Positions 16,400 to 30,972 of a stretch of DNA of 42,583 nucleotides are shown piece after piece. The DNA comes from Thermoanaerobaculia bacterium (GTDB taxonomy: Bacteria; Acidobacteriota; Thermoanaerobaculia; Multivoradales; JAHEKO01). The notes under the pieces were generated by a model. That model searched no databases, was not told the origin of the DNA, and worked only from the letters and a program-made list of their open reading frames with translations. The position numbers were made by a program, and so were the translations under genes. Within the stretch, counting starts at the first letter, position 1. Each line of letters begins with the position of its first letter. Where the stretch lies: positions 1-42,583 of the forward strand of contig CALZIK010000056.1 of assembly GCA_945787635.1 (NCBI GenBank), in the 5' to 3' direction.

Positions 16400-17437
16400 T
16401 CATCGGTTCGCTGGTTGCCGCCACAAGCTGGCCCGGTGGATTACGCGGCCTGTGGGGGCCGACGCATCCACGAACTCGAAGGAGAGCTCATCCGGAGATA
16501 CCTCGACGATCGCGAAGCCGAAGGCGCTCGTGGCCGAAATCACCTCGACGCCGGAGCCTGGAGGAAACGCCCAGCTTTGTCTCGCCGCATACAGGTCGCC
16601 GCCGCCGGCGCCCTGGACGATCTGATCGAAGTCCGGAGTCCGTAGATGCCCCTGGAGATGGTCGTGGCCAGCGAAGTAGACGTCGACGTCGCATCTGCGG
16701 ATCAGGCGCTCGAGCAGTGCTTGCTCGATCTCTTTGAAGGTTCCATTGGCGCGGCCGTGCCGGCCGCCCGGCGTATAGATCGGATGGTGTCCGAAGACGA
16801 GTCTCCAGCCGGGTGCGGCACACAGATGCTCGCGGGCGCGCTCGATCTGGCCGGTTTCGAGCCCCCGTGTGAGCAGGGTGGTGTCGACCGCTTGGATCGC
16901 CACCCATTCCGGCAGCTGCGGAACGGCATAGTCGAGAGCCGGCATGCGCCAGCGCTCACTCAGTTCGGAGTAGCTGATCTCGCTTTGGATCGAGCCCTTG
17001 CGCAGCCAGTCGTGGTTGCCGGCCACCATCCAGAAATCGGTTCGGCCGAACGCTCGATACGGTGCTTCGAACTGTTTCTCGAACGCACTCAGGGCGCGCT
17101 CGGCGTCCGGCCCCTCGAGACTCCGCGCGCCGGACCGGTAGATGTTGTCGCCGGTCACGAGGACGAAGTCGCACCCGCCGTCGGCGGCGCAACGTTCGTG
17201 CAGGACGTCGCCAACGGCGAGTTGCTCGGGTCCGCCGGTGCCCGAATCGCCGAGAACCGCAAAGCGCAAGCTCGTCTCGCCGCGATGGTCCGCTACCACG
17301 AGCGCGCCTGCGGGGCGAATCCGGAGCAACTCACCGACCTTCGGGCCGGTGACTCTTCGAAGCTGGATGCACGCCGCAACCAGCGAGACGACGACCAATG
17401 CGACGCAAAGTAGGAAAGTGCGCGTACGACCTACCAT
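16400..17437 (-). CDS. Metallophosphoesterase lipoprotein (calcineurin-like / purple acid phosphatase-like)
   Basis: A protein of 345 residues with all the blocks of the calcineurin-like phosphoesterase fold: 'LGDSGTGG', 'VTGDNIY', 'MVAGNHDW', '[11 protein letters not shown]' and '[12 protein letters not shown]'. These supply the Asp, Asn and His ligands of a two-metal centre that hydrolyses phosphomonoesters or diesters. The N-terminus has one hydrophobic segment ending in VAAC, a plausible lipobox, so it is likely an anchored lipoprotein facing the periplasm. The ATG at 17437 overlaps the end of the pheA-aroF fusion gene by seven bases, which argues for co-transcription with an aromatic amino acid gene although no functional link is obvious. 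The longer frame to 17743 lies wholly inside that upstream gene and is rejected. Confidence 0.87.
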
Positions 17438-19482
17438 CGCCGCCCTTGCCCCTCCACGATCGGCACAAGAGCCGCCTGGAGCCGCGCGAGGTCGTCGCCG
17501 GAGAGCGCCTGCTCGGCATCGCACAGGGCCTCCTCCGGATTTGGATGCACTTCCACGATCAGACCGTCGGCGCCGGCTGCCGCCGCAGCGAGAGCCAGTG
17601 GCGCGACCAAGCCGCGCCGACCGGCCGCGTGCGAAGGATCGACGATCACCGGTAGGTGGGTTCGCTCCCGAAGCACCGGCACCGCCGAAACATCGAGAGT
17701 GCTGCGGGTGGCGTTCTCGAAGGTACGGATGCCGCGTTCGCAAAGGATGACCTGGTGGTTGCCGCCTGCCATGACGTACTCGGCGGCCTGCAGGAACTCC
17801 GCGATCGTGGCGCTCAGACCGCGCTTCAAGAGCACCGGCCGGCGCACGGCGCCGACTTCCTTCAAGAGCTCGAAATTCTGCATGTTGCGTGCGCCGATCT
17901 GCAGAACGTCGGCCACCCGGGCGACGCGGTCCAGGTCTTCGAGGCGCAACACCTCGGTCACGATCGGCAGCCCGTACGCCTCCCGAGCCTCGGCCAGAAG
18001 CTCGAGGCCCTCGTAGCCGAGGCCCTGAAATGAATAGGGTGAGCTTCTCGGCTTGAAGGCACCGCCTCGGAGCATGCTCGCGCCGAGTCCCGCGACCATC
18101 TCAGCGGCGGCGAGTATCTGCTCCCGGCTCTCGACCGCGCAGGGACCCGCGATCATGGTGAAGGTGTCACCACCCACTTCCACGCGACCCACCCGGAGGA
18201 CGGTGCGCTGGCCAGGCGACGCGATCGCCGTCAGGTTCGGCCGGCCCGCGGCTGCGGGAATCGGCTCCGCGACCTCGGAGTCGTCGGCCGCGGCCGCGGG
18301 AGCCACCGTTTCACCCGGTGCCGCTCGCAAGTCCTCCCGCTCGACGATTGCGCGCGAGGGATAGCAGCCTAGAATCCGCAAGCTGCCGGTGCGCTGCCGG
18401 ACGCGGTTCAAGGTCTCGACCATGCGCGGATCTTCGGCGTTGGCCTCGACGTCGAGATAGAAGAGGTACTCCCAGGGCATGTCGGGCACGGGCCGGCTCT
18501 CGAGTTTGCTCAGGTTGAGACCCGCCTCCGAGAACGCGTTCAGGCACTCGGCTAGCGCGCCTTGACGGTGATCGACGGTCAAAAGGACCGAAGTCTTGGC
18601 GGGTACGCGCCCATCCACGCGCTCGGCCTCACGCCCGATCAGGACGAACCGCGTGTGGTTCTCGGAGTGATCCGCCACGCGATCGTCCAGGATCTCGAGA
18701 CCGAGCTGCCGGGCCGCCTCGGCCGAGCAGATCGCCGCCACCTGGGCGTCCTCGGATTCGGCGACCGACTCGGCGGCGGCCGCCGTGTCGTACCAGCTTT
18801 CGGCCCGAACCCCGACCAGACCGCGCAAGAACCGACCGCACTGCTGCAACGCGACCGGATGGGAGCGCACCGCGCGCAGATCGGCGACCTTCGCGCCCGG
18901 CTTCGCCACCAGGCAGTGCTCGACCCGCCAGATCTCTTCGTCCACGAGAGCCACGGGACGGTGTGCGATCTCGCGGTAGACCTCGTGGATGCTGCCGGCG
19001 ATCGTGTTCTCGATCGGCAAGAAGGCGTAGTCCGCCTCACCGGCCTCGAGCGCCTCGAGGGCGCTCTCGAAGGTCTCGTAGCCGGTTCGGGCAAGAGTCG
19101 AGTGCGGTCGGGAGGCGAAGAGCTTCTCGAGCGCCAGCTCCGAATAAGAGCCGGAAGCCCCCTGGTAGGCCACGCGAAGCGCCGGCCCGGTTCCCTCGCC
19201 CGCGGGAGCGGCCAGCCGGCGCTCCTGGTCCCGCCGAGAGTAGGCCAGAAGCTCTCGCAGAACCCTGCCGGCGAAATGCACCGAAAGCCCCAGGCTTTCC
19301 GCCTCCCGGCGCCAGAACGTGAAGACCTCGCGCTCACGGTTCGGATCCCAAAGCGGTGCCTCCCGGTTCTCGAGCTTGAAGCTCGCGATCTTGCGAACGG
19401 CCTCCATCCGCCGAGCCAAAAGGCCGAGAAGCTCGCGATCGATCTCGTCGATCGCGCTGCGGGATTGGTCGAGCTCCGCCAT
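17431..19482 (-). CDS. Fusion: chorismate mutase - prephenate dehydratase - ACT - DAHP synthase
   Basis: A protein of 683 residues that joins four modules. Residues 1-90 are an AroQ-type chorismate mutase ('[26 protein letters not shown]'). Residues 100-285 are prephenate dehydratase ('[12 protein letters not shown]', '[12 protein letters not shown]', NHTRF near 275). Residues 298-373 are an ACT domain with GALAECL and ESRP, the Phe-binding signature of PheA. After an Ala/Pro linker, residues 428-683 are a type I-beta DAHP synthase ('[10 protein letters not shown]', '[17 protein letters not shown]', 'DPSHAAGRR'). It would catalyse the first step of the shikimate pathway and also the conversion of chorismate to phenylpyruvate, with Phe feedback on both. 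The ATG at 19482 has AAGGAG six bases upstream. It is preceded by an apparent Phe attenuator. Confidence 0.93.
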
Positions 19483-19501
19483 TGGGTCTCCTTCTCTCAA
19501 C

Positions 19502-19529
19502 AAAAAAGCCCCGCCGGTCCGGCGGGGCT
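19502..19529 (-). terminator. Rho-independent terminator of the Phe attenuator
   Basis: On the minus strand a perfect 9-bp stem (19529-19521 with 19515-19507, sequence AGCCCCGCC/GGCGGGGCT) is followed at once by six T's (19507-19502). It lies 20 bases before the start of the pheA-aroF fusion gene and inside its 5' leader, so it fits an attenuator rather than the end of the upstream gene. Confidence 0.85.
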
Positions 19530-19552
19530 CGTTGCGGTCGATCGTTCCTGAC

Positions 19553-19627
19553 TTATCCGGTCGCGGCCCCGCTCTTCGGACTAGCGTCCGCAAAAAAGAA
19601 AAACGAGGAAGTGAAGGTCGCACGCAT
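19553..19627 (-). CDS. Phe-rich leader peptide of the attenuator (pheL-like)
   Basis: This is a 24-codon open frame from ATG 19627 to TAA 19555-19553. It begins MRATFTSS, then has four Phe codons in a row (TTT TTC TTT TTT at 19603-19592), and ends [12 protein letters not shown]. Five of 24 residues are Phe, comparable to the enteric pheL leader. Just after the Phe codons lies a small hairpin (CGGAC/GTCCG, 19590-19577). GCGGGGC at 19572-19566, near the end of the frame, can pair over seven bases with GCCCCGC at 19528-19522, the first arm of the terminator. A ribosome stalled at the Phe codons would leave this antiterminator segment free; one reaching the stop would cover it. No good ribosome binding site is visible, which is the weakest point. 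Confidence 0.8.
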
Positions 19628-19653: not shown

Positions 19654-19682
19654 AAGCTAGCACGGGCGGCAGGAGCGGTCAA
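19654..19682 (-). promoter_or_regulatory. Promoter of the pheA-aroF leader
   Basis: On the minus strand TTGACC (19682-19677) is followed after exactly 17 bases by an extended -10, TGCTAGCTT, with the hexamer at 19659-19654. Transcription would begin near 19647, about 20 bases before the leader peptide, giving a leader of about 165 bases before the structural gene. The -10 hexamer contains the TAG stop of the upstream DUF2878 gene. Confidence 0.6.
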
Positions 19683-20274
19683 CGGCGGCCGCGGCCGGCG
19701 AACCACCCGGCGACTTCGGACGAGAGTCCCATGGCAACCGATAGGCGCCGCCGCCAGTCGCAAACCGGTCGGCGACGGCCACCAGCAGCGGCAACGTGAT
19801 CGACCAGGTCAATCCCAGAACCGCGACCGCGGCCAGGCGCGGCTCGCCGAAGGTCGCGGCGCCCAAACGCTCGCCTCCGAGAAAGGACAGCGGCCCCCCG
19901 ATCAGTCCCAGAGCCGACGCCAGGAGATAGCGCTTCGAGAGCCAGCGCAGGCAGAAGTGAAGCGCGGTCGCGAACTGCATCCAGAGCGCGAGGATCCAGA
20001 GTGGCGCCAGTGCTCCGGGTTCGTGGCCGCCGAACCGGAGCACCCCGAACGCCGCGTGGAGAGTGTCGGCCGTAAGCCCGATGGCCGCGGCGGCGGCGAT
20101 CACCGGGATCTCGAGCCGGGGGCGCTGCGCTAAAGCCAGGTGCAGAGCGATCAGAGCGAAAGCGATCGAGGCGCCCGCCGTGCCCCACCCACCGGCAGCG
20201 CCGAGCACGCAGACCAACCAGCCCAACTGGTAAAGCGCCGCATTCAGCAAGGACGAGTGAGCCGAAGACGTCAT
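19657..20274 (-). CDS. DUF2878-family integral membrane protein
   Basis: A protein of 205 residues made almost entirely of hydrophobic segments, about six. Typical stretches are 'ALYQLGWLVCVLGAAGGWG', 'IAFALIALHLALAQRP', 'LWILALWMQFATALHFCLRWL' and 'SALGLIGGPLSFLGGERLGAA'. The pattern matches the DUF2878 family, whose biochemical role is not established; such genes recur beside CFA-synthase, DUF1295 and DUF1365 genes in other bacteria, as here. Its ATG overlaps the TGA of the secreted-protein gene upstream (ATGA), so the two are coupled. Its last codon and stop form part of the promoter for the downstream attenuator. Arg-rich readings of the other frames are shadows. Confidence 0.78.
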   Translation of the reverse strand: MTSSAHSSLLNAALYQLGWLVCVLGAAGGWGTAGASIAFALIALHLALAQRPRLEIPVIAAAAAIGLTADTLHAAFGVLRFGGHEPGALAPLWILALWMQFATALHFCLRWLSKRYLLASALGLIGGPLSFLGGERLGAATFGEPRLAAVAVLGLTWSITLPLLVAVADRFATGGGAYRLPWDSRPKSPGGSPAAAAVDRSCRPC

Positions 20275-21026
20275 CTTCCGACGCTCGAAGTTGCGATACT
20301 CGCTGTCTTCGAACCGTAATCGAACACGATCCGCGCTTTGTAGCGATCGCCGTCCTCATCGCACACGTTGGCGAGCCCTCGGAACTCCAGGAGCCGGCCA
20401 TCGAGTCCGTAGACAAGATCGATGGGATCCAACGCCAGGCGCAGAAGCAAGCTCGCTGGTCTCATCTTGACCAGCAGAGCCTCGCGCCCCTGGTACTCGA
20501 CGCGGCCCTGCGGCAGAAGCTCGAACTTGAAGAACCGACGAGCGGCGGGCACCGCGAACTCGAACTCGAGGGGCTCGCCGGCGGCAATCTCGGCGAACCT
20601 CTCCCGCATGAAAGCGTCGAAGCCCGCGTCGATCACTGCGCCCTTGGGGCGCCGCACCCGCCTCGGCGAGGCACCACCGTCGGAATCGCCGGACGCCAGG
20701 GCCACCTCGTCCGGACCGACCTCGGCGCTCTCACTGAGGCCGATCCGGAAGTCGGTCATCTCGAAGGACGGGGCTGCTGGATCGGCGCCGTAGCGGACCT
20801 CCTTTTCGGCGATCAAGCGACCCTCGGCGTCGACGTATGTCACCGAGCGCTCGGCAAGCTGGCCGCGTTTCCAGGTTTCGATGTGCCGCTCGACGTAGAG
20901 AAGCTCATCCGTCTCGAGGCCATAGGCGGTGGCACTGTACTCGCGCGTTCCGGTGATCATGTTGGCTGCGCAGAGGCTCGGCAAGAGACAGAAGGTGAGA
21001 GCAGCGATCGATGTAAGGGCTTTCAT
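20271..21026 (-). CDS. Exported protein of unknown function in the lipid/stress island
   Basis: A protein of 251 residues with a clear signal peptide (cleavage near 'PSLCAA'). The rest is rich in beta-type sequence with repeated 'EYSATAYGLETDELLYVERHIE', 'VTYVDAEGRLIAEKEVRYG' and 'QGRVEYQGREALLVKMRPAS'. This resembles periplasmic beta-barrel or lipid-binding proteins, but I do not recognise a family. The gene is preceded by AGGAG, a promoter with a perfect TTGACA, and the shared operator at 21039-21060. It therefore appears to be co-regulated with the divergent SRPBCC/epimerase gene, and it is coupled to the DUF2878 gene behind it. Confidence 0.75.
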   Translation of the reverse strand: MKALTSIAALTFCLLPSLCAANMITGTREYSATAYGLETDELLYVERHIETWKRGQLAERSVTYVDAEGRLIAEKEVRYGADPAAPSFEMTDFRIGLSESAEVGPDEVALASGDSDGGASPRRVRRPKGAVIDAGFDAFMRERFAEIAAGEPLEFEFAVPAARRFFKFELLPQGRVEYQGREALLVKMRPASLLLRLALDPIDLVYGLDGRLLEFRGLANVCDEDGDRYKARIVFDYGSKTASIATSSVGR

Positions 21027-21038
21027 CTTGACTCCTGT

Positions 21039-21060
21039 GATTCGTTCAAAACGTTCATTA
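21039..21060 (-). promoter_or_regulatory. Operator A of the shared TGAACGTTTTGAACG motif
   Basis: On the minus strand the sequence AATGAACGTTTTGAACGAAT lies immediately downstream of the -10 hexamer, over the likely transcription start of the 20271-21026 gene. It is a tandem pair of TGAACG units at nine-base spacing. The same motif recurs in operators B and C. Confidence 0.7.
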
Positions 21061-21062
21061 GT

Positions 21063-21091
21063 ATCCTACATTCCCATCCTTTCTCTGTCAA
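21063..21091 (-). promoter_or_regulatory. Promoter of the 20271-21026 / DUF2878 operon
   Basis: Minus-strand TTGACA (21091-21086), 17-base spacer, TAGGAT (21068-21063). The -35 is a perfect consensus match and the -10 matches four of six. Operator A follows directly. Confidence 0.6.
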
Positions 21092-21098
21092 TACTCTC

Positions 21099-21126
21099 TT
21101 GTATTGGACTCAAATCCGTATATAAT
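21099..21126 (+). promoter_or_regulatory. Promoter of the SRPBCC-epimerase operon
   Basis: TTGTAT (21099-21104), 16-base spacer, and a perfect TATAAT (21121-21126). Transcription would begin near 21133, inside operator B, leaving a leader of about 27 bases. Confidence 0.65.
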
Positions 21127-21143
21127 GACGTTTTGAACGAATC
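21124..21143 (+). promoter_or_regulatory. Operator B of the shared motif
   Basis: AATGACGTTTTGAACGAATC overlaps the -10 and the predicted start point. It is the mirror image of operator A apart from one base missing in the first TGAACG unit. The two therefore form a 20-base inverted repeat bracketing the divergent promoters, an arrangement expected for repression of both. Confidence 0.7.
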
Positions 21144-21159
21144 GCTACCAAGATCCTGA

Positions 21160-22551
21160 ATGCCCACCGCTACCTTCGAGAGCCGGATTCCCGTCCCCCC
21201 GGCCGAGCTGTTTGCCTGGCACGCCCGAACCGGCGCTTTCGAGCGCCTCAGCCCACCGTGGCAGCAAATCGCGATCGATCACCCGGCTCCCGTAGAAGAA
21301 GGCACCCGCGTTCACCTGCGCCTCAAGAAGGGGCCGCTATGGCTCAAGTGGACGGCAGAGCACCGTGACGTGGAGCCGGGGCGCCGCTTCACCGACGTCC
21401 AGACCTCCGGCCCCTTCTCCCGTTGGGTCCATCGCCACGAGTTCGAGCCGCACGCTTCGGGCGGCTCGACGCTCCGTGACCGAATCGAGTACCGGCTGCC
21501 GGGCGGGCTCCTCGGCCGCATGGTGGCGGGCTCGAGCGTTGCGAACGACCTCGAGGCGACCTTCTGCTATCGACACGCCACCACGGCGCGCGACCTCGCC
21601 CGGCATCAACGCTTTCGAGTTCGGCCGCGCCAGCGCATCGCGATCACCGGAGCCTCCGGCCTCGTCGGCACCGGGCTGCGGGCGTTTCTCACCACCGGCG
21701 GTCACCGGGTCGTGTCGCTGCGCAGGGGTCGGCGATCCGCTCCGGGTGAGAGTGTCGACAGCGTTCACTGGACGACCGAGGCGGGGATTCTCGAACCCCA
21801 ATCGGTCGAGCCCTTCGACGCGGTCGTCCACCTGGCCGGCGAGAGCATCGCCTCGGGGCGCTGGACGGCGGCCAGGAAGAGCAGGATCCGGGACTCCCGC
21901 GTGAACGGCACCCGCAACCTTGTCCACTCGCTCGCCGAGCTTCCGAGGCCGCCCAAGACCCTGATCTGCGCCTCGGCCATCGGTTTCTACGGCTCGCGCG
22001 GCGATCGGATTCTCGAAGAGACAGCCGCCGCTGGCGACGGCTTTCTCGCCGAGACCTGCCGGGAGTGGGAGGCGGCCTCCCTGGAGGCCGAGAGCCTCGG
22101 CGTTCGCGTCGTCAGACTCCGCTTCGGCATCATTCTGACTCCCTCCGGCGGAGCGCTTGCCAAAATGCTGCCGCCCTTTCGGCTCGGCCTCGGAGGCGTT
22201 CTGGGAAGCGGCCGGCAGCACATGAGCTGGATTTCGATCGACGACGCCGTCGGCGCGATCCATGAAGCGGTCCTCGACGAAACCCTGACCGGGGCGGTCA
22301 ACGCCGTGGCTCCCCAACCGGTCACCAACCGCGAGTTCACGCAAGCCCTCGGCAAGGCCCTGCGCCGCCCGACGGGCTTTCCGGTGCCGGCGCCCGCCGC
22401 CCGTCTGGCGTTCGGGGAGATGGCCGACGAAATGCTTCTCTCGAGCACCCGCGTCGTTCCCAGTCGGCTGCTCGACACGGGTTTCGCCTTCCACGATCCG
22501 GACCTCGACGCGGCTCTCGCGCGGCTGCTCGGAAAGGCCCGAATGACATGA
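21160..22551 (+). CDS. SRPBCC domain fused to TIGR01777-type NAD-dependent epimerase (SDR39U1-like)
   Basis: A protein of 463 residues. Residues 1-150 are an SRPBCC/START-like ligand-binding domain ('FESRIPVPPAELFAWHARTGAFERLSPPW' and 'GPFSRWVHRHEFEP'). From about 160 there is an extended SDR with 'IAITGASGLVGTGLRAFL', 'VVHLAGESIASGRW', 'SAIGFYGSRGD', 'VRLRFGIILTPSGGALAKMLPPFRLGLGG' and 'GSGRQHMSWISIDD', all marks of the TIGR01777 family. The reaction is unknown; a role in modifying or sensing a lipophilic molecule is inferred from the SRPBCC part and the neighbourhood. No clear ribosome binding site precedes the ATG at 21160. The stop overlaps the next gene's start (ATGA). The gene is driven by the operator-B promoter. 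Confidence 0.9.
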   Translation: MPTATFESRIPVPPAELFAWHARTGAFERLSPPWQQIAIDHPAPVEEGTRVHLRLKKGPLWLKWTAEHRDVEPGRRFTDVQTSGPFSRWVHRHEFEPHASGGSTLRDRIEYRLPGGLLGRMVAGSSVANDLEATFCYRHATTARDLARHQRFRVRPRQRIAITGASGLVGTGLRAFLTTGGHRVVSLRRGRRSAPGESVDSVHWTTEAGILEPQSVEPFDAVVHLAGESIASGRWTAARKSRIRDSRVNGTRNLVHSLAELPRPPKTLICASAIGFYGSRGDRILEETAAAGDGFLAETCREWEAASLEAESLGVRVVRLRFGIILTPSGGALAKMLPPFRLGLGGVLGSGRQHMSWISIDDAVGAIHEAVLDETLTGAVNAVAPQPVTNREFTQALGKALRRPTGFPVPAPAARLAFGEMADEMLLSSTRVVPSRLLDTGFAFHDPDLDAALARLLGKARMT

Positions 22552-23066
22552 GGAAAGCCGACGAAAACGTCTACGAATTCGCGCTGGAGGCGGCCGTCGA
22601 GCGGGTTTTTGATCTCTTTTCGCGACCCGAGCGCCTCAACGAGCTGACACCCCGCTGGTTCGATCTACGGCCGCGCGAGCCCGTGCCCGAGCGGCTCGAC
22701 ACCGGCTCCGAAGTCGAGTACCGCTTGCGCTGGCGAGGATTTCCGATGACCTGGATCAGCCGGATCGTCGAATGGTCGCCGCCCCACCGGTTGACCTACG
22801 AGCAGGTCCGAGGGCCCTATCGGTTCTTCCGGCACGAGCACAGTTTCGACGATGCCGGCGTCGTGACTCGAGTCCGGGACCGGGTGAGCTACCGAACCGC
22901 CGGAGGGCTGGCGATCGAGAGGCTTCTGGTGCGGCCGGATCTAAGACGAATCTTCCGGCACCGCGCGCAAGCCGCCGCGAGCGTGCTCGCCGGTCGGGAC
23001 GCGATGCTCAGCGCCGGTCGGCCGGCGCCGGGTCCAATCAGCCACGGGCGAGCTTCATCCCCTTGA
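22548..23066 (+). CDS. SRPBCC-family protein
   Basis: A protein of 172 residues with the SRPBCC/START fold pattern: 'VYEFALEAAVERVFDLFSRPERLNELTPRW', 'TGSEVEYRLRWRGFPMTWISRIVEW', 'YEQVRGPYRFFRHEHSF' and 'VRDRVSYRTAGG'. Members of this group bind hydrophobic ligands and are sometimes labelled cell-division inhibitors; the ligand is unknown. It resembles the N-terminal domain of the preceding protein, so the two may come from a duplication. Its ATG overlaps the upstream stop by four bases. The final 29 bases overlap the 3' end of the convergent MerR-type regulator gene, so the two transcripts would be antisense there. Confidence 0.85.
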   Translation: MRKADENVYEFALEAAVERVFDLFSRPERLNELTPRWFDLRPREPVPERLDTGSEVEYRLRWRGFPMTWISRIVEWSPPHRLTYEQVRGPYRFFRHEHSFDDAGVVTRVRDRVSYRTAGGLAIERLLVRPDLRRIFRHRAQAAASVLAGRDAMLSAGRPAPGPISHGRASSP

Positions 23067-23919
23067 CCAACGCCTCGAGCTCGGCCATCGAGCCGCCGAT
23101 GTAGAGCAGCTCGCGCTTGGGCAGTCCGAGCTTTTTCGCGTGGACGCCTCCCACGACCAGTGGCGTGCCGCGCGCCTCGAGAGCCGGGAGCAGCCGCAGC
23201 ACGTCGTCTCGAAGGCGCCGCGGGTTGACGGCGACGCTCACGCTCAACCAGGCGAGCTTCGCATCGAGATCTTCGATCCCCAAGGCCAGGGTCTCGGCCG
23301 GAGTCTCGGCGCCGAGATTCACCGCGCGCAGGCCCTCACCCTCGAGCACCGCCGCTACCGCCATCGACGGCAGGATGTAGGGATCCCCGGACGCGGCGCC
23401 GCCGATCGTAAACGCAGCCTCATCGCTGACCTTGAGAAGCGACCGCAGCCGGCCCAGCGACTGAATCGCGATTTGGGTCGCGCGATGCTCCCAGAAAACC
23501 CCTGAGGGTTCTTTCGTCCACAGTTCGCCGATTCTCGCCATCGCGGCTCGAAGAGGCCCATCAACGATCTCGGCGACGCTCCAGCCGTCCAGAAACAGGG
23601 AGAACAAAAGGCCTCGGGCCTCGGCCTCCGCGCCCGCTCGAAGATATTCGAAAAAGCGAGCCGCGGCCTCGTCGCTGTGGAGCGAGAGCGAATCGACGCC
23701 GGCAAGAGCCGTCAGCTCCGCAAGACCGAGAACATCGGGGCGCAGCAGAGGAATCGAGCGCTCGCGAACGTATCGGGCCGCTTCCTGGACCGAGATTCGG
23801 CGATGACCTCCGGCGGTCTTGGCGGCCTCCAAGTGGCCATCATCTACCCAGCGTTTCACGGACGATTCGCTGACGCCGATCCCCTCGGCGAGTTCCCTGG
23901 GGCTGAGGACTTGTTTCAA
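23038..23919 (-). CDS. CarH/LitR-like MerR-family regulator with degenerate cobalamin-binding domain
   Basis: A protein of 293 residues. Residues 5-52 are a MerR-type winged helix ('SPRELAEGIGVSESSVKRWVDDG', 'GGHRRI'). Residues 80-165 are the four-helix domain with Trp134 and Glu144-His145, the W-x9-EH motif that packs on adenosylcobalamin in CarH. Residues 168-293 are a Rossmann-like B12-binding domain. The E-x-H-x-x-G motif whose His ligates cobalt is here GDPYILP, with Tyr181 in the His position, so normal base-off/His-on binding looks impossible. CarH/LitR proteins repress light-inducible genes in the dark and release DNA when light breaks the B12 bond. The start is TTG at 23919; no in-frame ATG lies nearby. 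Operator C lies in its own promoter region, suggesting autoregulation. Confidence 0.87.
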   Translation of the reverse strand: MKQVLSPRELAEGIGVSESSVKRWVDDGHLEAAKTAGGHRRISVQEAARYVRERSIPLLRPDVLGLAELTALAGVDSLSLHSDEAAARFFEYLRAGAEAEARGLLFSLFLDGWSVAEIVDGPLRAAMARIGELWTKEPSGVFWEHRATQIAIQSLGRLRSLLKVSDEAAFTIGGAASGDPYILPSMAVAAVLEGEGLRAVNLGAETPAETLALGIEDLDAKLAWLSVSVAVNPRRLRDDVLRLLPALEARGTPLVVGGVHAKKLGLPKRELLYIGGSMAELEALVKGMKLARG

Positions 23920-23930
23920 GATACGACTTC

Positions 23931-23950
23931 TATGAACGTTTTGAACGTCA
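23931..23950. promoter_or_regulatory. Operator C of the shared motif, upstream of the regulator gene
   Basis: TATGAACGTTTTGAACGTCA reads on the plus strand 12 bases upstream of the regulator's TTG start. It shares the exact 15-base core TGAACGTTTTGAACG with operator A. On the minus strand it follows a TTGACT (23984-23979) that could be the regulator's -35. Confidence 0.68.
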
Positions 23951-24047
23951 AAAGACTACCCGCGCTCAACAAAAAAAGTCAAGAGAAATCGGAGGATAGG
24001 AGAAATTCATCAAAAAAATCGCGACTCGAGTGCATCCAGAGCCGACC

Positions 24048-24082
24048 TTGACGGCGAATACCGAAATGTGCATGATCTGCAC
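24048..24082 (+). promoter_or_regulatory. Promoter and palindrome upstream of the fasciclin gene
   Basis: TTGACG (24048-24053), 17-base spacer, CATGAT (24071-24076). The -10 is embedded in an inverted repeat GTGCA-TGATC-TGCAC (24068-24082), which could bind a regulator other than the TGAACG-motif protein. Confidence 0.45.
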
Positions 24083-24118
24083 GATTTGGATGTTTTAATC
24101 AACCCAAAGGAGAATCCG

Positions 24119-24604
24119 ATGCGCAAAACACTCACAGTCCTGGCCCTCACTGCCCTGATCGCCCTTCCCGTAGCTGCGAACAGCTATGCCGAGAAGGACA
24201 TCGTCGAAACGGCCGCCGAGGCCGGGTCCTTCACCACTCTAGTTGCGGCCGTCCAAGCCGCGGGTCTGGCCGAGGCCCTCAAGGGCGACGGTCCATTCAC
24301 CGTCTTCGCCCCTACCGACGAAGCCTTCGCCAAGCTGCCTGAGGGAACCGTCGAGAGTCTGCTTCAGCCCGAGAACCTCGACCGGCTGCAGGCGATCCTG
24401 AAGTACCACGTCATCGGCGCTCAGGTCATGGCGGCGAGCGTCACCGACGGACTCGAGGCCGACACCTTGAACGGTGAATCTCTCTCGTTCTCCATCACCG
24501 AAAACGGCGCCAGTGTCAGCGGAGCCAAGATCGTCGCCACCGACGTCGCGGCGTCCAACGGCGTGATCCACGTGATCGACACGGTGCTCATTCCCTCCGA
24601 GTAA
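24119..24604 (+). CDS. Exported fasciclin (FAS1) domain protein
   Basis: A protein of 161 residues with a signal peptide (cleavage near 'VAANSYA') followed by one complete FAS1 domain. Its H1 and H2 conserved blocks are visible: 'GPFTVFAPTDEAFAKLPEGTVESLL' and 'ILKYHVIGAQV', ending in 'ASNGVIHVIDTVLIPSE'. FAS1 domains mediate adhesion or, in some bacteria, bind small lipophilic or carotenoid ligands; the role here is unknown. The ATG at 24119 follows AAGGAG; a GTG 51 bases upstream lies in the promoter palindrome and is rejected. Small FAS1 proteins of this length often occur near light- or stress-induced genes. Two stem-loops follow the gene. Confidence 0.92.
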   Translation: MRKTLTVLALTALIALPVAANSYAEKDIVETAAEAGSFTTLVAAVQAAGLAEALKGDGPFTVFAPTDEAFAKLPEGTVESLLQPENLDRLQAILKYHVIGAQVMAASVTDGLEADTLNGESLSFSITENGASVSGAKIVATDVAASNGVIHVIDTVLIPSE

Positions 24605-24728: not shown

Positions 24729-26222
24729 ATGGCACACAAGATCCTAGTCACCGGAGCGACCGGCTATATCGGAGGCCGGCTCGTACCGCGCCTGCTCGAT
24801 GCCGGCTACCGGGTCCGCTGCCTGGCGCGAAGCCCGAAGAAGCTCGAAACTCGCGACTGGGCCGATCACGCCAACGTCGAGATCGCTCAGGGCGATCTGG
24901 ACGATCCGCAGTCTCTCGACCGAGCGCTCGAGAACGTGACCGCCGCCTACTATCTGGTTCATTCGATGCTTGCGGCCGGCGCCGACTATGCCGAGCACGA
25001 CCGCCTCCTAGCCCGGAACTTCGCCACGGCTGCGAGTAGATCGCCGTCGCTCCAGCGAATTGTCTATCTGGGCGGTCTCGGAGAGACCGGGGCGGATCTC
25101 AGCGAGCATCTCACTTCACGGCGGGAGGTCGAGCGCGAGCTCGCCGCCGGATCCGTCCCGATCACCGTGCTTCGCGCGGCGATGATCATCGGATCGGGCT
25201 CTGCGTCCTTCGAGATCCTGCGCTACCTGGTCGAACGCCTTCCGGTCATGGTGACTCCGCGCTGGGTGCAGACGGAGTCCCAGCCCATCGCGGTACGAAA
25301 CGTCCTCGAGTATCTCGTCGGCGTCCTGACTGTTGAGAAAACGGTCGGTCAGGTCCTCGACATCGGAGGGCCCGAAATCGTCTCTTACCGAGACTTGATG
25401 CAAATCATGGCGCAAGCCCTGGGCGTTCCCAAACGGATCGTCCTGCCAGTCCCCGTCCTCACTCCCCGCCTCAGCTCCCTCTGGATCCACTTGGTGACTC
25501 CCTTGAGTCACCGGATAGCCCGTCCCCTCGCCGAAGGCCTGCGCAACCGTGTCGTGTGCCGCTCGGCGGCCGCCCGTGAGCTGATGCCGCTTTCGCTGCT
25601 CAGCGTGCGGGAGGCCGTCGACGCGGCGCTCGGCCAGCATCAGAGCCACAACGTCGAGACGTCGTGGTCCGACGCGGGCCCGATCCCCGGAGATCCGGAC
25701 TGGGCCGGGGGCACGACGTTTCGCGACCGCAGGACCGCCCTCGTCGCCGCGGAACCGGATTCCGTTTTCCGCGCGGTCCGGCGAATCGGTGGAGGCAACG
25801 GCTGGTACGCCGCCGACGTCCTGTGGCGAATTCGCGGCTGGATGGATCGCCTGGTCGGCGGCCCCGGCCTGCGTCGCGGCCGCCGCGACTCCGAGAAGCT
25901 CGCCTACGGCGACGCTCTCGACTTCTGGCGAGTCACCGGGATCGAAGACGGTCGGCGCCTCGAGCTGCGCGCCGAAATGAAGCTGCCGGGAGAAGCTCTG
26001 CTCGAGTTCGTGGTAGAGGCGGCGCCGGAAGGCTCGAGGCTCACCCAGACCGCCCGGTTCAAGCCGCGGGGCCTGGCCGGCCTCCTCTACTGGGCGGCCG
26101 TCTACCCGTTTCACGGCTTCGTCTTCCGGGGCATGCTCACCGGCATCCGCCGCACGGCCGAGGCCCTCGCCGCGCCGATGTCGACAGACCGGGCCGAAAG
26201 CCCCGCGGCGGGCGGCTCGTGA
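24729..26222 (+). CDS. Atypical SDR fused to DUF2867
   Basis: A protein of 497 residues. Residues 1-310 are an NAD(P)-binding atypical SDR ('ILVTGATGYIGGRLVPRLLDAGYRVRCLARSP', 'YYLVHSM', 'IVYLGGLGE', 'LRAAMIIGSGSASFEILRYLVERLPVM'). Residues 340-485 match DUF2867 ('SVFRAVRRIGGGNGWY', 'FWRVTGIEDGRRLELRAEMKLPGEALLEF', 'FKPRGLAGLLYWAAVYPFHGFVFRGM'), an SRPBCC-like domain. The combination is a known architecture of unassigned function, often found next to photolyase, CFA synthase and DUF1365 genes. It is the first gene of a tightly packed run of coupled genes to 32793. The ATG at 24729 begins the Rossmann strand; an earlier in-frame start at 24675 lies inside the hairpin region. Confidence 0.9.
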   Translation: MAHKILVTGATGYIGGRLVPRLLDAGYRVRCLARSPKKLETRDWADHANVEIAQGDLDDPQSLDRALENVTAAYYLVHSMLAAGADYAEHDRLLARNFATAASRSPSLQRIVYLGGLGETGADLSEHLTSRREVERELAAGSVPITVLRAAMIIGSGSASFEILRYLVERLPVMVTPRWVQTESQPIAVRNVLEYLVGVLTVEKTVGQVLDIGGPEIVSYRDLMQIMAQALGVPKRIVLPVPVLTPRLSSLWIHLVTPLSHRIARPLAEGLRNRVVCRSAAARELMPLSLLSVREAVDAALGQHQSHNVETSWSDAGPIPGDPDWAGGTTFRDRRTALVAAEPDSVFRAVRRIGGGNGWYAADVLWRIRGWMDRLVGGPGLRRGRRDSEKLAYGDALDFWRVTGIEDGRRLELRAEMKLPGEALLEFVVEAAPEGSRLTQTARFKPRGLAGLLYWAAVYPFHGFVFRGMLTGIRRTAEALAAPMSTDRAESPAAGGS

Positions 26223-26641
26223 CCGGCGTCGCGCTCCTTCACGCCGCCTCGACCCTCGCCATGACCGGGCTCATCTGGTTCGTGCAGGTGGTGCACTATC
26301 CGCTGTTTCGCTATGCCTCGCTCGGCGACTTCCGCGAGTTCGCGGCCTCGCATCAAAGACGGACGACGGTCGTGGTCCTGCCCTTGATGTCGCTCGAGAT
26401 CTCCACGGCGGTTCTCCTTGTTACTCGTCCCCTGCCCGGTTCCTTCGGCAGCGCGACGACCGGCTTGCTGCTGCTTGCCGTGATCTGGCTTTCGACGGCC
26501 CTCGTTCAAGTGCCGCTTCACCGCCGACTCGGCCGAGGGTTCGACGGCGAAACCGCTCGCCGACTGGTCGGAACGAACTGGCTCCGCACCGCCGCCTGGA
26601 GCGCGCGGTCATGGATCGCCCTAAGGCTCCTCGCGCCATGA
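26219..26641 (+). CDS. Small integral membrane protein
   Basis: A protein of 140 residues from a GTG at 26219, with four predicted membrane helices: 'LLHAASTLAMTGLIWFVQVVHY', 'VVVLPLMSLEISTAVLLV', 'TGLLLLAVIWLSTALVQVPL', and a weaker C-terminal one. I do not recognise a named family with certainty; it resembles conserved hypothetical membrane proteins found in photolyase/CFA clusters. It overlaps the gene before it (GTGA) and the gene after it (ATGA), each by four bases, so it is certainly part of this operon. A longer Arg-rich reading in the same frame upstream is inside the SDR-DUF2867 gene and is not coding. Confidence 0.8.
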   Translation: MTGVALLHAASTLAMTGLIWFVQVVHYPLFRYASLGDFREFAASHQRRTTVVVLPLMSLEISTAVLLVTRPLPGSFGSATTGLLLLAVIWLSTALVQVPLHRRLGRGFDGETARRLVGTNWLRTAAWSARSWIALRLLAP

Positions 26642-27876
26642 GAATCGCGATTGTAGGGACCGGGGTTTCCGGCCTGACCTGCGCACACCTTCTATGCAGC
26701 GAGCACGAGGTATCGGTATTCGAGGCGCAAGCGCGGCTGGGCGGCCACACGGTGACCTCCGACATCGAGACCGACGAGCGGTCGCTGGCGGTGGACGCCG
26801 GTTTCATCGTCTACAACGAAGCCAACTACCCGAACTTCGTCAAGCTTCTTTCGCGGCTCGGCGTCGAGTCCCAACCCACCAGCATGAGCTTCAGCGTCAA
26901 GAGCGATCGCGCCGCGCTCGAGTATGCCGGCACCAACCTGAACACCCTCTTCGCTCAACGTTCGAACCTGCTGCGTCCGGGCTTCTACGGCCTCCTCGGT
27001 GACATTCTCCGATTCAATCGCGCCGCGGCTCGAGCCGCAGGCAACGGTCTCACCGGCACGCTCGGCGACTTTCTCGAGGCCCATCGACTGAGTGAGCGAT
27101 TGGCGGAGCTTTACCTGATTCCGTTGACCGCGGCGATCTGGTCCACGGAGCCCAGGAGAATCCTCGACACTCCGGCGCGCTTCGTGCTCCGCTTTCTCGA
27201 CAACCACAACCTGCTGGGCACCAGCGGTTTTCAGTCCTGGCGTGTCGTCAAGGGCGGCTCGGCCCGCTACGTGGAGAAGCTCGTCGCGCCCTTCCGGAAT
27301 CGCATCCGCCTGTCGTCCCCAGTGCGCCGGCTGACGCGAACCGCCGACGGAGTCGACGTCGCGACCGACTCCGGGACCGAGATCTTCGACGAGGTGATCG
27401 TCGCCGCCCACAGCCATCAGGCGCTGGCCATGCTCGCCAGGCCCTCGAAGCCCGAGCGCGAGATCTTGGGTGCCATTCAGTTCCAGCCCAATCCGGCGAT
27501 CCTCCACACCGACCGGTCCGTACTTCCCTCCAGACGCCGAGCCTGGGCCAGCTGGAATTACCGCGTTCCCGTGGATCGCCAAAACGCCGTGGCGGTGACC
27601 TACAACATGACCAAACTGCAGAGTCTGCCCACCTCCACGCCCTACTGCGTGTCGCTGAACCTGCACAGCGACGTCGCTGAGTCGGCGGTCTTGCGAAGCT
27701 TCGACTTCGAGCACCCGCTCTTCTCCACGGCCGCGGTCGCGGCCCAGAAGCGTCACGGCGAGATCAGCGGGATCGACGGAATCCACTACTGCGGCGCCTA
27801 CTGGCACAACGGCTTCCACGAGGACGGCGTCGTGAGCGCGCTCGAGGTGTGCGGCAAGTTCGGAGTTTCGCTGTGA
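26638..27876 (+). CDS. FAD-dependent oxidoreductase (COG2907, amine-oxidase-like)
   Basis: A protein of 412 residues. The N-terminal dinucleotide fold 'RIAIVGTGVSGLTCAHLL' is followed by 'VFEAQARLGGHTVTSD' and 'DAGFIVYNEANYPNF', as in COG2907 flavoproteins; the C-terminus has 'GIDGIHYCGAYWHNGFHEDGVVSAL', which closes the FAD site. Relatives act on fatty acyl chains: they stand next to CFA-like methyltransferases in pathways to methyl-branched and furan fatty acids, where they oxidise or reduce the methylated chain (from memory; exact homologues not checked). Here DUF1365 and two CFA-like enzymes follow directly, supporting a lipid substrate in the membrane. The start overlaps the previous stop by four bases. 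Confidence 0.9.
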   Translation: MRIAIVGTGVSGLTCAHLLCSEHEVSVFEAQARLGGHTVTSDIETDERSLAVDAGFIVYNEANYPNFVKLLSRLGVESQPTSMSFSVKSDRAALEYAGTNLNTLFAQRSNLLRPGFYGLLGDILRFNRAAARAAGNGLTGTLGDFLEAHRLSERLAELYLIPLTAAIWSTEPRRILDTPARFVLRFLDNHNLLGTSGFQSWRVVKGGSARYVEKLVAPFRNRIRLSSPVRRLTRTADGVDVATDSGTEIFDEVIVAAHSHQALAMLARPSKPEREILGAIQFQPNPAILHTDRSVLPSRRRAWASWNYRVPVDRQNAVAVTYNMTKLQSLPTSTPYCVSLNLHSDVAESAVLRSFDFEHPLFSTAAVAAQKRHGEISGIDGIHYCGAYWHNGFHEDGVVSALEVCGKFGVSL

Positions 27877-28637
27877 GCCTTTCGAGCGCGATCTACCTGG
27901 GAAGCGTGCGGCATCGGCGCTTCGAGCCCACCGAGCACGCCTTCCGGTACCCGCTGTTTCTGATGTACCTCGACCTCGCCGAGCTCGATACCGTATTCGC
28001 GAATCGCCGGCTCTGGTCGACCAGCCGAGCGGCGGTGGCCCGATTCGACCGCCGCGACCATCTGGGCGATCCCGCCCAGCCTCTCGACGCCTCGGTTCGA
28101 GAGCTGGTCGAGGCCGAGACCGGCACTCGCCCCGAGGGGCCGATTCGGCTGCTCACCCATCTGCGCTACTTCGGGCACTGCTTCAATCCGGTGAGCTTCT
28201 ACTACTGCTTCGACGAAAGCGGTACCCGGCTCGAGACCCTGGTCGCCGAGGTCAACAACACGCCCTGGGGTGAGCGTCACTGCTACGTCCTGACCGCTGG
28301 AGAGCCCACCGGCAACAACGGGACGCTGTCATTTCGCTCGACCAAGCGGCTCCACGTCTCGCCGTTCATGGGCATGGACGTCGCCTACGAGTGGCGAACC
28401 GGCGTGCCGTCCGAGAGGCTTCTGGTTCACATCGACAACCGTCGCAACGGCAACAGGCTCTTCGACGCGACCATGACGCTCGAGCGGCGCGAGATCACGG
28501 GCCCGCGCCTCGCGTGGTTGCTGGCTCGCTTTCCGATCATGACTCTGCGAGTGGTCCTTTGGATCCACTGGGAGGCTTTCAGACTATGGCTCAAGAAAAC
28601 GCCCTTCTATCCGCACCCGAAGCACAGCCGGACCTAG
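27873..28637 (+). CDS. DUF1365-family protein
   Basis: A protein of 254 residues starting with GTG at 27873, which overlaps the TGA of the flavoprotein (GTGA). DUF1365 features are 'AIYLGSVRHRRFEPTEHAFRYPLFLMYLDLAEL', 'IRLLTHLRYFGHCFNPVSFYYCFDE', 'VAEVNNTPWGERHCYVL' and 'KRLHVSPFMGMDVAYEWR'. Its activity is not established, but it is a nearly constant partner of the COG2907 flavoprotein and CFA-like methyltransferases, so a step in fatty acyl modification is inferred. The coding end overlaps the start of the next gene by 52 bases, longer than the four-base overlaps elsewhere in this operon. Confidence 0.9.
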   Translation: MSLSSAIYLGSVRHRRFEPTEHAFRYPLFLMYLDLAELDTVFANRRLWSTSRAAVARFDRRDHLGDPAQPLDASVRELVEAETGTRPEGPIRLLTHLRYFGHCFNPVSFYYCFDESGTRLETLVAEVNNTPWGERHCYVLTAGEPTGNNGTLSFRSTKRLHVSPFMGMDVAYEWRTGVPSERLLVHIDNRRNGNRLFDATMTLERREITGPRLAWLLARFPIMTLRVVLWIHWEAFRLWLKKTPFYPHPKHSRT

Positions 28638-29926
28638 AGCCGGTCGAGCCGGCCGGCGGCAACGCTCACGAGAGCCGGACCGCCCGCGATCCATGGCTGC
28701 GCCGGCGGGCGCGTCGGCTGGTCTCGAGTCGACTGGAGAGGCTCGCCGAGGGACGGCTGACGATCAGCGAGAACGGCGCGACTCGCGAGTTCGGTCGCCC
28801 CGGGACGTTTCCCCTCGAGGCTGCGATCACCATTCACGATCCGGCCTTCTGGGAACGCCTCGCCTGGGGCGGATCGATCGGCGCCGGCGAGGCTTTTTGC
28901 GACGGTCTCTGGACGACCCCCGATCTCACCGCCGTAATCCGCTTGTTCGCCCGCAATCAGAAGGCTCTGCAGGGTTTCGACTCGGGCCTGGGCACGCTCG
29001 CAGCTCCACTTCGAAGCCTCCTCCACCGCCTGAGGACGAACACCCGCGCCGGCAGCCTGCGCAACATTGCCGCCCACTACGACACCGGCAACGAGTTCTT
29101 CTCCAAGTTTCTCGATTCGACCTTGACCTATTCCTGCGCGATCTTCCCCGACGCTCTGTCGACCCTCGAGACCGCTCAACAGTGGAAGCTCGACACGATC
29201 TGCAAGAAACTCGAGCTCGACCGGAACGACCATCTGCTCGAGATCGGCACCGGCTGGGGTGGTCTTGCCATCCACGCCGCGCGTAAGCACGGCTGTCGAG
29301 TCACCACCACCACGATTTCCCGGCAGCAGTTCGAGTACGCTTCGAAGGCGATCGAGGAAGCCGGGCTCGACGACCGGATCACCGTGCTGCGAGCCGACTA
29401 TCGCGACCTGCCGGTCCTTCTGAACCAGCGCTTCGACAAGTTGGTCTCGATCGAGATGATCGAGGCCGTAGGGCACCGCTTCCTTCCAGGTTACTTCGAG
29501 GTCATCAGCCGCATGCTCAAAGACGACGGCCTGGCGCTTCTGCAGGCAATCACCATTCCCGACCAGCGCTACGACGCCTATCGCCGCTCGGTCGATTTCA
29601 TTCAACACTACATCTTCCCGGGCGCCCTCCTGCCGTCGATGGCCCGAATCCAGGAGTGCGTGCGCACACGAACCGACTTGCGACTCCTGGACCTCGAGGA
29701 CCTGACACCGCACTACGCCCGAACCCTCAAGGCCTGGAACGACCGCTTCGAGACGCGGGAAGACGAGATCGCCGAGCTCGGCCTGAGCGCTCTGGAGCGC
29801 CGAAAGTGGAAGTACTACTTCGGCTACTGCGAGGGCGGATTCCTGGAGCGAACGGTTGGAAACATCCAGATTCTGTTCGGAAAGCCTTTGAATCGCCGGC
29901 AGGTTTCGCCGAGCAGCTTCGTCTAA
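28586..29926 (+). CDS. cfa: Cyclopropane-fatty-acyl-phospholipid synthase
   Basis: A protein of 446 residues. It shows the full CFA-synthase pattern: 'IAAHYDTGNEFFSKFLDSTLTYSCAIFPD', the SAM-binding 'LLEIGTGWGGLAIHAA', 'TTISRQQFEYASKAIEEAGL', 'KLVSIEMIEAVGHRF' and 'QHYIFPGALLPSM', ending in 'YYFGYCEGGF'. CFA synthase transfers a methylene from S-adenosylmethionine to the cis double bond of membrane phospholipid acyl chains. Length is slightly above the usual 380-420 because of a 40-residue polar N-terminal extension. The ATG at 28586 has GGAGG about ten bases upstream and lies within the end of DUF1365. Related methyltransferases make 10-methyl or furan-precursor chains, so product identity is open. 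Confidence 0.93.
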   Translation: MAQENALLSAPEAQPDLEPVEPAGGNAHESRTARDPWLRRRARRLVSSRLERLAEGRLTISENGATREFGRPGTFPLEAAITIHDPAFWERLAWGGSIGAGEAFCDGLWTTPDLTAVIRLFARNQKALQGFDSGLGTLAAPLRSLLHRLRTNTRAGSLRNIAAHYDTGNEFFSKFLDSTLTYSCAIFPDALSTLETAQQWKLDTICKKLELDRNDHLLEIGTGWGGLAIHAARKHGCRVTTTTISRQQFEYASKAIEEAGLDDRITVLRADYRDLPVLLNQRFDKLVSIEMIEAVGHRFLPGYFEVISRMLKDDGLALLQAITIPDQRYDAYRRSVDFIQHYIFPGALLPSMARIQECVRTRTDLRLLDLEDLTPHYARTLKAWNDRFETREDEIAELGLSALERRKWKYYFGYCEGGFLERTVGNIQILFGKPLNRRQVSPSSFV

Positions 29927-29940
29927 AGGAGATCGCAACC

Positions 29941-30972
29941 ATGCAGTGGACCCTCAACCTGGCCGAATCCGGCTGGATCCCCGATCCGGTGCTCAAGGCC
30001 GGAATCCGACGATTGCTTCGAGGACGGATCACTTCGATCGGTGCGGAGCTCGAGCCGGAGGTCGAGATCGTGCGGCAAATGCGCGAGAGCCCGATCGCCA
30101 TCGAGACGGACGCCGCCAACGAGCAGCACTACGAAGTGCCGCCCGAGTTCTACCGGCTCGTGCTCGGCCGACATCTCAAGTACAGCTGCTGTTTCTGGCC
30201 CGACGGCGTCGGGTCGCTCAACGATGCCGAGGCGGCAGCGCTGGACCAGGTTTGTGAGCGCGCAGGCCTCGAAGACGGAATGCGCGTCCTGGACCTCGGT
30301 TGCGGCTGGGGCTCGCTCAGCCTCTGGATCGCCGAAAAGTACCCCCGGAGTCGGGTCACCTCGGTGTCCAACTCCGCCCCTCAGTGCGATTTCATTCGCG
30401 AGAAAGCCAGGGAACGCAACCTCGGCAACCTCGAGGTGATCACCGCCGACATGAACGGCTTTCAGCTTGCGAAGACCTTCGATCGCATCGTCTCGGTGGA
30501 GATGTTCGAGCACATGCGCAACTACGATGCGCTGCTCGCCCGCGTCGCCAGCTGGCTCGCCCCCAAGGGCAAGCTTCTCGTCCACATCTTCTGTCACCGC
30601 GACCGGCCCTACTTCTTCGAAGACAACGGCGCCAGCGACTGGATGGCCCGCCACTTCTTCACCGGCGGGCTGATGCCCTCCGAACGGCTCATGGAGCGGT
30701 CGTCGGGCCCATTGGCCCTCGATCGGCGCTGGCGTCTCAACGGCCGGCACTACGAAAAGACTGCCCTTGCCTGGCTCGAGAACTTGGATCGCAACCGCGC
30801 ACCGGTTCTGGAGATCTTCGAGAACACCTACGGACGGAATGACGCGCTTCGCTGGTTTCATCGCTGGCGCATGTTCTTTCTCGCCTGCGCGGAGCTCTTC
30901 GCCTACAACCAGGGCGATGAGTGGTTCGTTTCGCATTCGCTGTGGTCGTTGAAACCGACCGAGATCAACTGA
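29941..30972 (+). CDS. Second CFA-synthase-like SAM methyltransferase
   Basis: A protein of 343 residues. It lacks the N-terminal domain of Cfa and begins close to the catalytic region: 'NEQHYEVPPEFYRLVLGRHLKYSCCFWPDG', then 'RVLDLGCGWGSLSLWIAEKYP', 'VTSVSNSAPQCDFI', 'IVSVEMFEHMRNYD' and 'LVHIFCHRDRPYFFEDNGASDWMARHFFTGG'. This shorter form resembles plant coclaurine N-methyltransferase-like and bacterial CFA-like methylases, so it may methylate an acyl chain or another lipid-soluble substrate instead of forming a cyclopropane. The AAAGGAG ribosome binding site begins within the TAA stop of cfa, so translation is coupled. It is clearly a paralogue, not a copy, of the preceding enzyme. Confidence 0.9.
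   Translation: MQWTLNLAESGWIPDPVLKAGIRRLLRGRITSIGAELEPEVEIVRQMRESPIAIETDAANEQHYEVPPEFYRLVLGRHLKYSCCFWPDGVGSLNDAEAAALDQVCERAGLEDGMRVLDLGCGWGSLSLWIAEKYPRSRVTSVSNSAPQCDFIREKARERNLGNLEVITADMNGFQLAKTFDRIVSVEMFEHMRNYDALLARVASWLAPKGKLLVHIFCHRDRPYFFEDNGASDWMARHFFTGGLMPSERLMERSSGPLALDRRWRLNGRHYEKTALAWLENLDRNRAPVLEIFENTYGRNDALRWFHRWRMFFLACAELFAYNQGDEWFVSHSLWSLKPTEIN

Follow-up and report, generated by a model that had tools for sequence, protein, structure and literature searches.

A tandemly repeated 9-bp motif lies at four predicted promoters in a 42,583-nucleotide stretch of DNA from a Thermoanaerobaculia bacterium (contig CALZIK010000056.1 of assembly GCA_945787635.1; hereafter the window), and the B12-domain regulator encoded at positions 23038-23919 very probably uses it as its operator. 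The original prediction had proposed the operator of a CarH-like regulator. Judged from sequence, the most fitting description is not a CarH operator but a 9-bp repeat code used by a regulator branch that combines BldC-type and B12-type domains.

Two exact copies of the 15-mer TGAACGTTTTGAACG are present in the window, at 21043-21057 on the minus strand and 23933-23947 on the plus strand, exactly where an identical 15-base core had been described. Five window positions match this 15-mer with at most three mismatches, compared to a mean of 0.52 in shuffled sequences, and none of 100 shuffles reached five. The match extends from 15 to 18 bp, which defines the predicted operators S1 (21040-21057, minus strand; TGAACGTTTTGAACGAAT, two 9-bp repeats) and S3 (23933-23950, plus strand; TGAACGTTTTGAACGTCA), both with the exact core. 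The third copy, TGACGTTTTGAACG at 21126-21139 (plus strand), is indeed one base short of the 15-mer; it appears to be better read with a fixed 9-bp period, as an intact half-site behind a degenerate one at 21125-21142 (S2; ATGACGTTTTGAACGAAT, in which a full repeat is paired with a degenerate one). S1 and S2 contain a perfect 16-bp inverted repeat (GATTCGTTCAAAACGT / ACGTTTTGAACGAATC) whose arms are separated by 73 nt and flank two back-to-back promoters of sigma-70-like sequence, in agreement with the mirror-image pair reported earlier. Only 13 bp separate S3 from the start codon of the regulator, so the copy previously noted just upstream of the regulator gene is also accounted for. The earlier inspection by eye, which had found no further copies in the window, missed one. 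A diverged fourth site, S4, consists of three 9-bp repeats, TGCATGATC-TGCACGATT-TGGATGTTT, at 24069-24095 (plus strand) upstream of a fasciclin gene, and contains two exact matches to the degenerate pattern TGNAYGWTNTGNAYGWTT. With this fourth operator the main operon of the island would join the regulon.

An 18-bp matrix trained without the window scored S1 at 26.2, S4 at 24.3, S3 at 21.8 and S2 at 17.2 bits, with an upstream register of S4 at 16.9 bits; the best match outside the two intergenic regions was 10.8 bits. At a threshold of 16.9 bits the window contains five matches, all at the four operators, compared to five in total among 100 dinucleotide shuffles of the window (0.05 per window). 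When the two intergenic regions were shuffled 2000 times each, 21 of the 4000 sequences reached 16.9 bits, with a maximum of 22.0. A second matrix, trained on 11 regions from outside the family, gave 24.1 bits for S1, 20.5 for S4, 19.0 for S3 and 13.4 for S2, and at most 11.7 elsewhere in the window.

The same motif was recovered independently from other genomes. The set comprised the stretch of approximately 250 bp that precedes the regulator gene in each of 20 regions from 17 genomes other than that of the window; three genomes contributed two copies each, and locus L039, which matches L048 of genome G011 in its regulator, was counted once. With the window excluded, expectation-maximisation begun at random starts settled on TGAACGtTTTGAACG at a log-likelihood (LL) of 155.3, and 15 dinucleotide-shuffled sets of the same regions gave at most 57.2. 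Its building block is the 9-bp sequence TGNAYGWTT, repeated head-to-tail in two to three copies. Same-strand pairs of TGNAYG up to 40 bp apart were found 16 times at 9 bp, twice each at 18 and 27 bp, and three times at other distances; the shuffle expectation for 9-bp pairs was a mean of 0.055 and a maximum of one. The earlier description of direct half-sites nine bases apart is therefore well founded. No same-strand pair occurred at the 11-bp spacing of CarH operators in the 20 regions, and there was no excess at that distance. A palindromic reading (CGTTttgAACG) was rejected because the two halves of the matrix agree in direct (r = 0.98) and not in inverted orientation (r = -0.23). Nor does the motif, TGNAYG-N3-TGNAYG, correspond to the class II LitR site TGTACA-N12-TGTACA. 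Although the window contains only two exact copies, as might be expected if the likeness were a chance similarity of AT-rich promoter DNA, we reject this explanation as having a negligible probability, as it is contradicted by the recovery from other genomes and by the shuffle controls of the window, the upstream regions and the half-site spacing.

Whether orthologous islands keep the motif had been set beforehand as a test. A site of at least 16 bits was found in 18 of the 20 other regulator-upstream regions, with the matrix trained on those same regions. S3 has a counterpart in most orthologues, and loci L046 and L047 hold strong sites at the place of S2. All sites of at least 16 bits in the orthologue site table, S3 included, read away from the regulator gene. 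Two regulator copies per genome were observed in three genomes (L052, on one contig; L047/L048 in G011; L060/L061 in G112), and each duplicate has its own 9-bp-repeat site of at least 16 bits; paralogous regulons may therefore share one code.

An exact search of 148 genomes of the class with TGNAYGWTNTGNAYGWTT returned matches in 16 genomes, compared to two for the reversed control. Sixteen genomes encode the regulator (15 at E ≤ 1e-30, plus G017, which has an N-terminal fragment), and the pattern is present in ten of these compared to six of the 132 others (Fisher, 4.9e-8). One of the six, G059, has its match immediately before the gene of a distant homologue of the regulator (27-34% identity, long matches), and in the remaining five it sits in long open frames. 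As the pattern was built from regulator-linked regions, matches beside regulators are not independent evidence; those away from regulators are. Several of the latter lie at other promoters: between DUF6134-like and TIGR01777 genes (G004:C314), before an NmrA-DUF2867 homologue (G017:C315), before a nitroreductase gene (G003:C28), before a weak match to an outer-membrane barrel (G017:C566), and near a DUF4397 gene and an outer-membrane barrel (G014:C8). In the window's own genome the pattern search found no off-island operator; nine one-mismatch near-matches, and the three best of another scan, lie in long open frames at the loci inspected. This outcome, too, agrees with the proposal, which many copies at unrelated genes would have contradicted. 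Ten distant, weakly matching B12-protein loci (L022-L025, L028-L030, L034, L036 and L038; about 3 kb each) gave a best matrix score of 10.4. Taken together, conservation and the absence of a detected off-island operator support the proposal that the motif would serve the adjacent regulator in repressing both divergent arms and its own gene.

That the motif is instead read by a different, unlinked regulator sharing the regulon is improbable. A sigma factor of the extracytoplasmic function (ECF) type with a zf-HC2 protein about 10 kb away provides a potential candidate, but the motif co-occurs with the regulator across genomes, is present at the regulator's own promoter, and has similar sites beside regulators where the neighbouring genes differ.

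The regulator (23038-23919, minus strand) is a 293-residue protein with a TTG start, composed of a BldC-like helix-turn-helix (HTH) followed by B12-binding_2 and B12-binding domains. Pfam assigns HTH_17, B12-binding_2 and B12-binding, the last at 23.6 bits, below the cut-off of 32.1. In NCBIfam an excisionase-type HTH scores above its cut-off, whereas BldC (NF033787) reaches 31 bits against a cut-off of 77 and CarH 27.9 against 400. The closest PDB relative of the whole protein is CtMerR of Chloracidobacterium thermophilum (8jbs/8jbt), which has the same domain order, and the first 50 residues match CtMerR best (8jbs, E = 2.3e-7), followed by BldC. A structure model with a predicted local distance difference test (pLDDT) score of 93.4 has TtCarH and CtMerR as its best matches. 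The predicted DNA-binding domain is BldC-like and not CarH-like.

Streptomyces BldC (6ama/6amk), which has a similar helix-turn-helix, is reported to bind head-to-tail to direct repeats of 9 bp, AATTXXXXC, in which Arg30 contacts the C-G pair (PMC5859096); its variable number of repeats is paralleled by the sites predicted here. The repeat given in that paper for smeA-sffA, CATTTGCAC, resembles GATTTGCAC of the window motif, and in the BldC register the window unit reads GWTTTGNAC. The Arg of TRW in BldC aligns with that of KRW in the window regulator, although equating it with Arg30 assumes a tag offset of three. BldC comprises 68 residues without a sensor domain, whereas the window regulator carries two fused B12-type domains.

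The 9-bp grammar extends to relatives that resemble CtMerR at the cobalamin-binding position. The axial His is kept in locus L090 and in all eight other His-type relatives, and eight of the nine (L090, L113-L119) have the 9-bp grammar. CtMerR-type proteins are encoded at L119 and L115, which come from two 2-contig genomes. That of L119 is approximately 90% identical to 8jbs, as estimated from the printed alignment, and upstream of its gene lies TGAACGTTTTGAACGTTT, an 18-bp match of 28.1 bits containing the same 15-mer; L115 carries TGGGCGTTTTGAGCGTTT and TGACTGTTTTGGTCGTTT. In L113, L114 and L116-L118 the recognition helix reads SDATVKRW, and position 4 of the half-site is G in 13 of 14 hand-picked half-sites, compared to A in the window clade. 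A de novo search of the nine His-type regions alone, run without a shuffle control, gave TGAGCGgTTTGAGCGATT. In genome G421 the regulator and a fasciclin gene 54% identical to that of the window point away from each other, and two repeat sites occupy the interval. At L132 the genes divergent from a CtMerR orthologue encode a TPR-like protein and a polyprenyl synthetase, an arrangement that would suit isoprenoid or carotenoid control; the window regulator adjoins a fatty-acid operon. A RAMP-superfamily gene, presumably CRISPR type III, also adjoins the CtMerR orthologue of L132 (10526-11668, minus strand). At L128 (G365:C142) a GTP cyclohydrolase II gene is closely preceded by a repeat site at 1501-1518; another light regulon is described as including pterin genes (PMC9758184).

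Several observations weigh against assigning the motif to this regulator. No good site was found in two of the 20 orthologous regions (none at all in L057, 12.5 bits in L056), nor among the His-type relatives in L112, whose protein is 66% identical to that of L090. The same-genus near-orthologue L050 lacks the DNA-binding domain, and its 19 kb examined contain no site above 9.2 bits. S2 is weak with the matrix trained outside the family, and both the degenerate pattern and the matrix derive from regulator-linked regions. In the Blastocatellia-like genomes G421 and G365 a related pattern had six matches each, compared to three each for the reversed control. The L050 gene itself (G001:C127, 9894-10505) is 73% identical over residues 88-291, is accompanied by no other island genes in 19 kb, and may owe its shape to truncation or to a join made in assembly.

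The position of the sites relative to the promoters is consistent with repression. S1 lies directly downstream of the minus-arm promoter, a sigma-70-like TTGACA-17-TAGGAT at 21063-21091 (minus strand). The plus-arm promoter, TTGTAT-16-TATAAT at 21099-21126 (plus strand), was read by eye and is absent from the consensus scan list; S2 begins at its -10 box. A candidate regulator promoter read from the sequence, TTGACT-18-TAGTCT, occupies 23953-23982 (minus strand), with S3 two bases behind its -10 box; a TTGAC at the same distance of 32 nt from the site is also found in L047 and L049. At the promoter of the fasciclin operon, TTGACG-17-CATGAT at 24048-24076 (plus strand), the first S4 repeat overlaps the -10 box. 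Across the site table, TTGAC occurs within 60 nt on the site's strand in 25 of 45 rows, 28-31 nt upstream of the site in 12 of them, at 21 nt (one repeat nearer) in three, at 37-40 nt (about one repeat farther) in five, and elsewhere in five; in most cases the predicted operator would thus begin where the -10 box ends. MerR activators sit between the -35 and -10 boxes; a position just behind the -10 box suits a repressor.

In the mechanism that we infer, the regulator would bind head-to-tail on two to three tandem repeats, with one BldC-like domain reading one repeat and the B12-type domains holding at least two protomers together. Operators beginning at or just behind the -10 box would block RNA polymerase at both divergent arms (DUF2878 and SRPBCC), at the regulator's own gene and at the fasciclin-led, furan-fatty-acid-type operon. 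A signal, by analogy light or photo-oxidative stress, may then dissociate the oligomer and so lift the repression.

The nature of the signal depends on the B12 pocket, whose signature in this family consists of GxxW, EH and GxxxP together with the axial GxxH (PMC11796333). In the window regulator the residues W134, E144, H145, G203 and P207 of the first three motifs are invariant. The axial GxxH reads GxxY in all 21 orthologues (L057 has S for G), and in the PDB alignment this Tyr, Tyr181, coincides with the axial His of CtMerR (GDPY compared to GDLH). As the axial His is replaced by Tyr, dark/light control cannot be assumed. CtMerR, a proven photoreceptor for adenosylcobalamin (AdoCbl), is reported to bind AdoCbl and to convert from tetramer to monomer in light (PMC11796333), and its predicted operator is nearly identical to the sites described here. 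These likenesses, the two B12-type domains, the retained pocket residues and the structural match to TtCarH and CtMerR would be compatible with a true CarH/LitR system, in which an AdoCbl-bound tetramer sits on the operators in the dark and is taken apart by light. We consider this possible but rather doubtful, since the Tyr is universal among the orthologues, the CarH family score is far below its cut-off, and the repeat is 9 bp long and not the 11 bp of CarH. CarH operators are described as tandem 11-bp direct repeats, nnnnTnnACAn, overlapping promoters (PMC9304148); class I CarH/LitR proteins thus share B12-binding_2, B12-binding and predicted tandem operators over promoters with the window system, and differ in repeat length, DNA-binding domain and the conserved axial His. 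The CarH-like label of the original prediction fits the B12 domains, but not the DNA-binding domain, the repeat period or the axial residue.

A B12-independent repressor that retains the fold and responds through a partner protein or another ligand, as do CarA and class II LitR, has a somewhat better chance, falling just short of even. The invariant change from His to Tyr fits such a protein, and relatives of this kind are described in both groups (PMC9304148, PMC9758184). Loss of the cofactor leaves unexplained, however, why W134, E144, H145 and G203/P207 remain invariant. Returning to the 9-bp code as the operator of the B12-domain regulator, we tentatively suggest, as one candidate among others, a separate branch of B12-domain repressors with a BldC-type 9-bp code, one clade of which may use Tyr-ligated cobalamin, or sense another tetrapyrrole, in furan-fatty-acid-type membrane protection. 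With the histidine replaced in every orthologue, the question arises what such a pocket would detect. The proposal would provide the DNA code of the CtMerR branch, a solved light-responsive sensor for which we recognised no operator or target report in the open-licence PMC literature, and would link repeat reading of the BldC type with sensing of the CarH type, each a known module. The main text of the CtMerR paper calls the protein's DNA-binding site 'alternative' and does not contain the word operator (PMC11796333). An exact-string search for the 15-mer and its variants found neither in the open-licence PMC literature.

The minus arm behind S1 begins with a conserved secreted protein without a Pfam match (20271-21026), which we take to be DUF6134-like, followed by a DUF2878 protein (19657-20274). 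The plus arm behind S2 encodes a fusion of SRPBCC and a TIGR01777 epimerase (21160-22551) and an SRPBCC protein (22548-23066). Behind S4, domain matches identify, all on the plus strand, a fasciclin-domain protein (24119-24604), an NmrA-like NAD(P)-binding protein with DUF2867 (24729-26222), an amine-oxidase-type oxidoreductase dependent on flavin adenine dinucleotide (FAD; 26638-27876) that by position may be UfaD-like, and a DUF1365 protein of the UfaO domain type (27849-28637). Two cyclopropane-fatty-acid (CFA) synthase-type methylases come next, also on the plus strand, the first UfaM-like (stretch searched, 28544-29926) and the second in an open frame at 29656-30972 whose true start is probably later; SOUL and DUF1295 proteins follow them. 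Since DUF1365 is found in UfaO, and UfaM methylates fatty-acyl chains (PMC7380195), the S4 operon likely has a furan-fatty-acid-type function.

Related gene sets are controlled differently elsewhere. The Rhodobacter furan fatty acid genes described in PMC7380195 (the UfaM methylase, UfaD, and UfaO with DUF1365) are under sigma/anti-sigma control by ChrR/sigma-E, in place of the B12-type repressor proposed here. The class II LitR proteins PplR/PmlR of Pseudomonas are reported to repress a locus that is induced by light and includes ufaM and a gene for an FAD oxidoreductase, related to genes of the window island, but they recognize a different site, keep one B12-type domain and work with a LOV protein (PMC9758184). 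The present system would therefore add a third kind of regulator to the two, ChrR/sigma-E and class II LitR, that control genes of the furan-fatty-acid type. About 1 kb beyond the DUF1295 gene, the ECF sigma factor (34276-34878) and the zf-HC2 protein (33467-34501) lie in overlapping frames on the minus strand and are likely a sigma/anti-sigma pair. No cobalamin riboswitch or other Rfam RNA was detected in the window at gathering scores. Beyond the minus arm, 17431-19623 (minus strand) encodes a 730-residue fusion of chorismate mutase, prephenate dehydratase and DAHP synthase.

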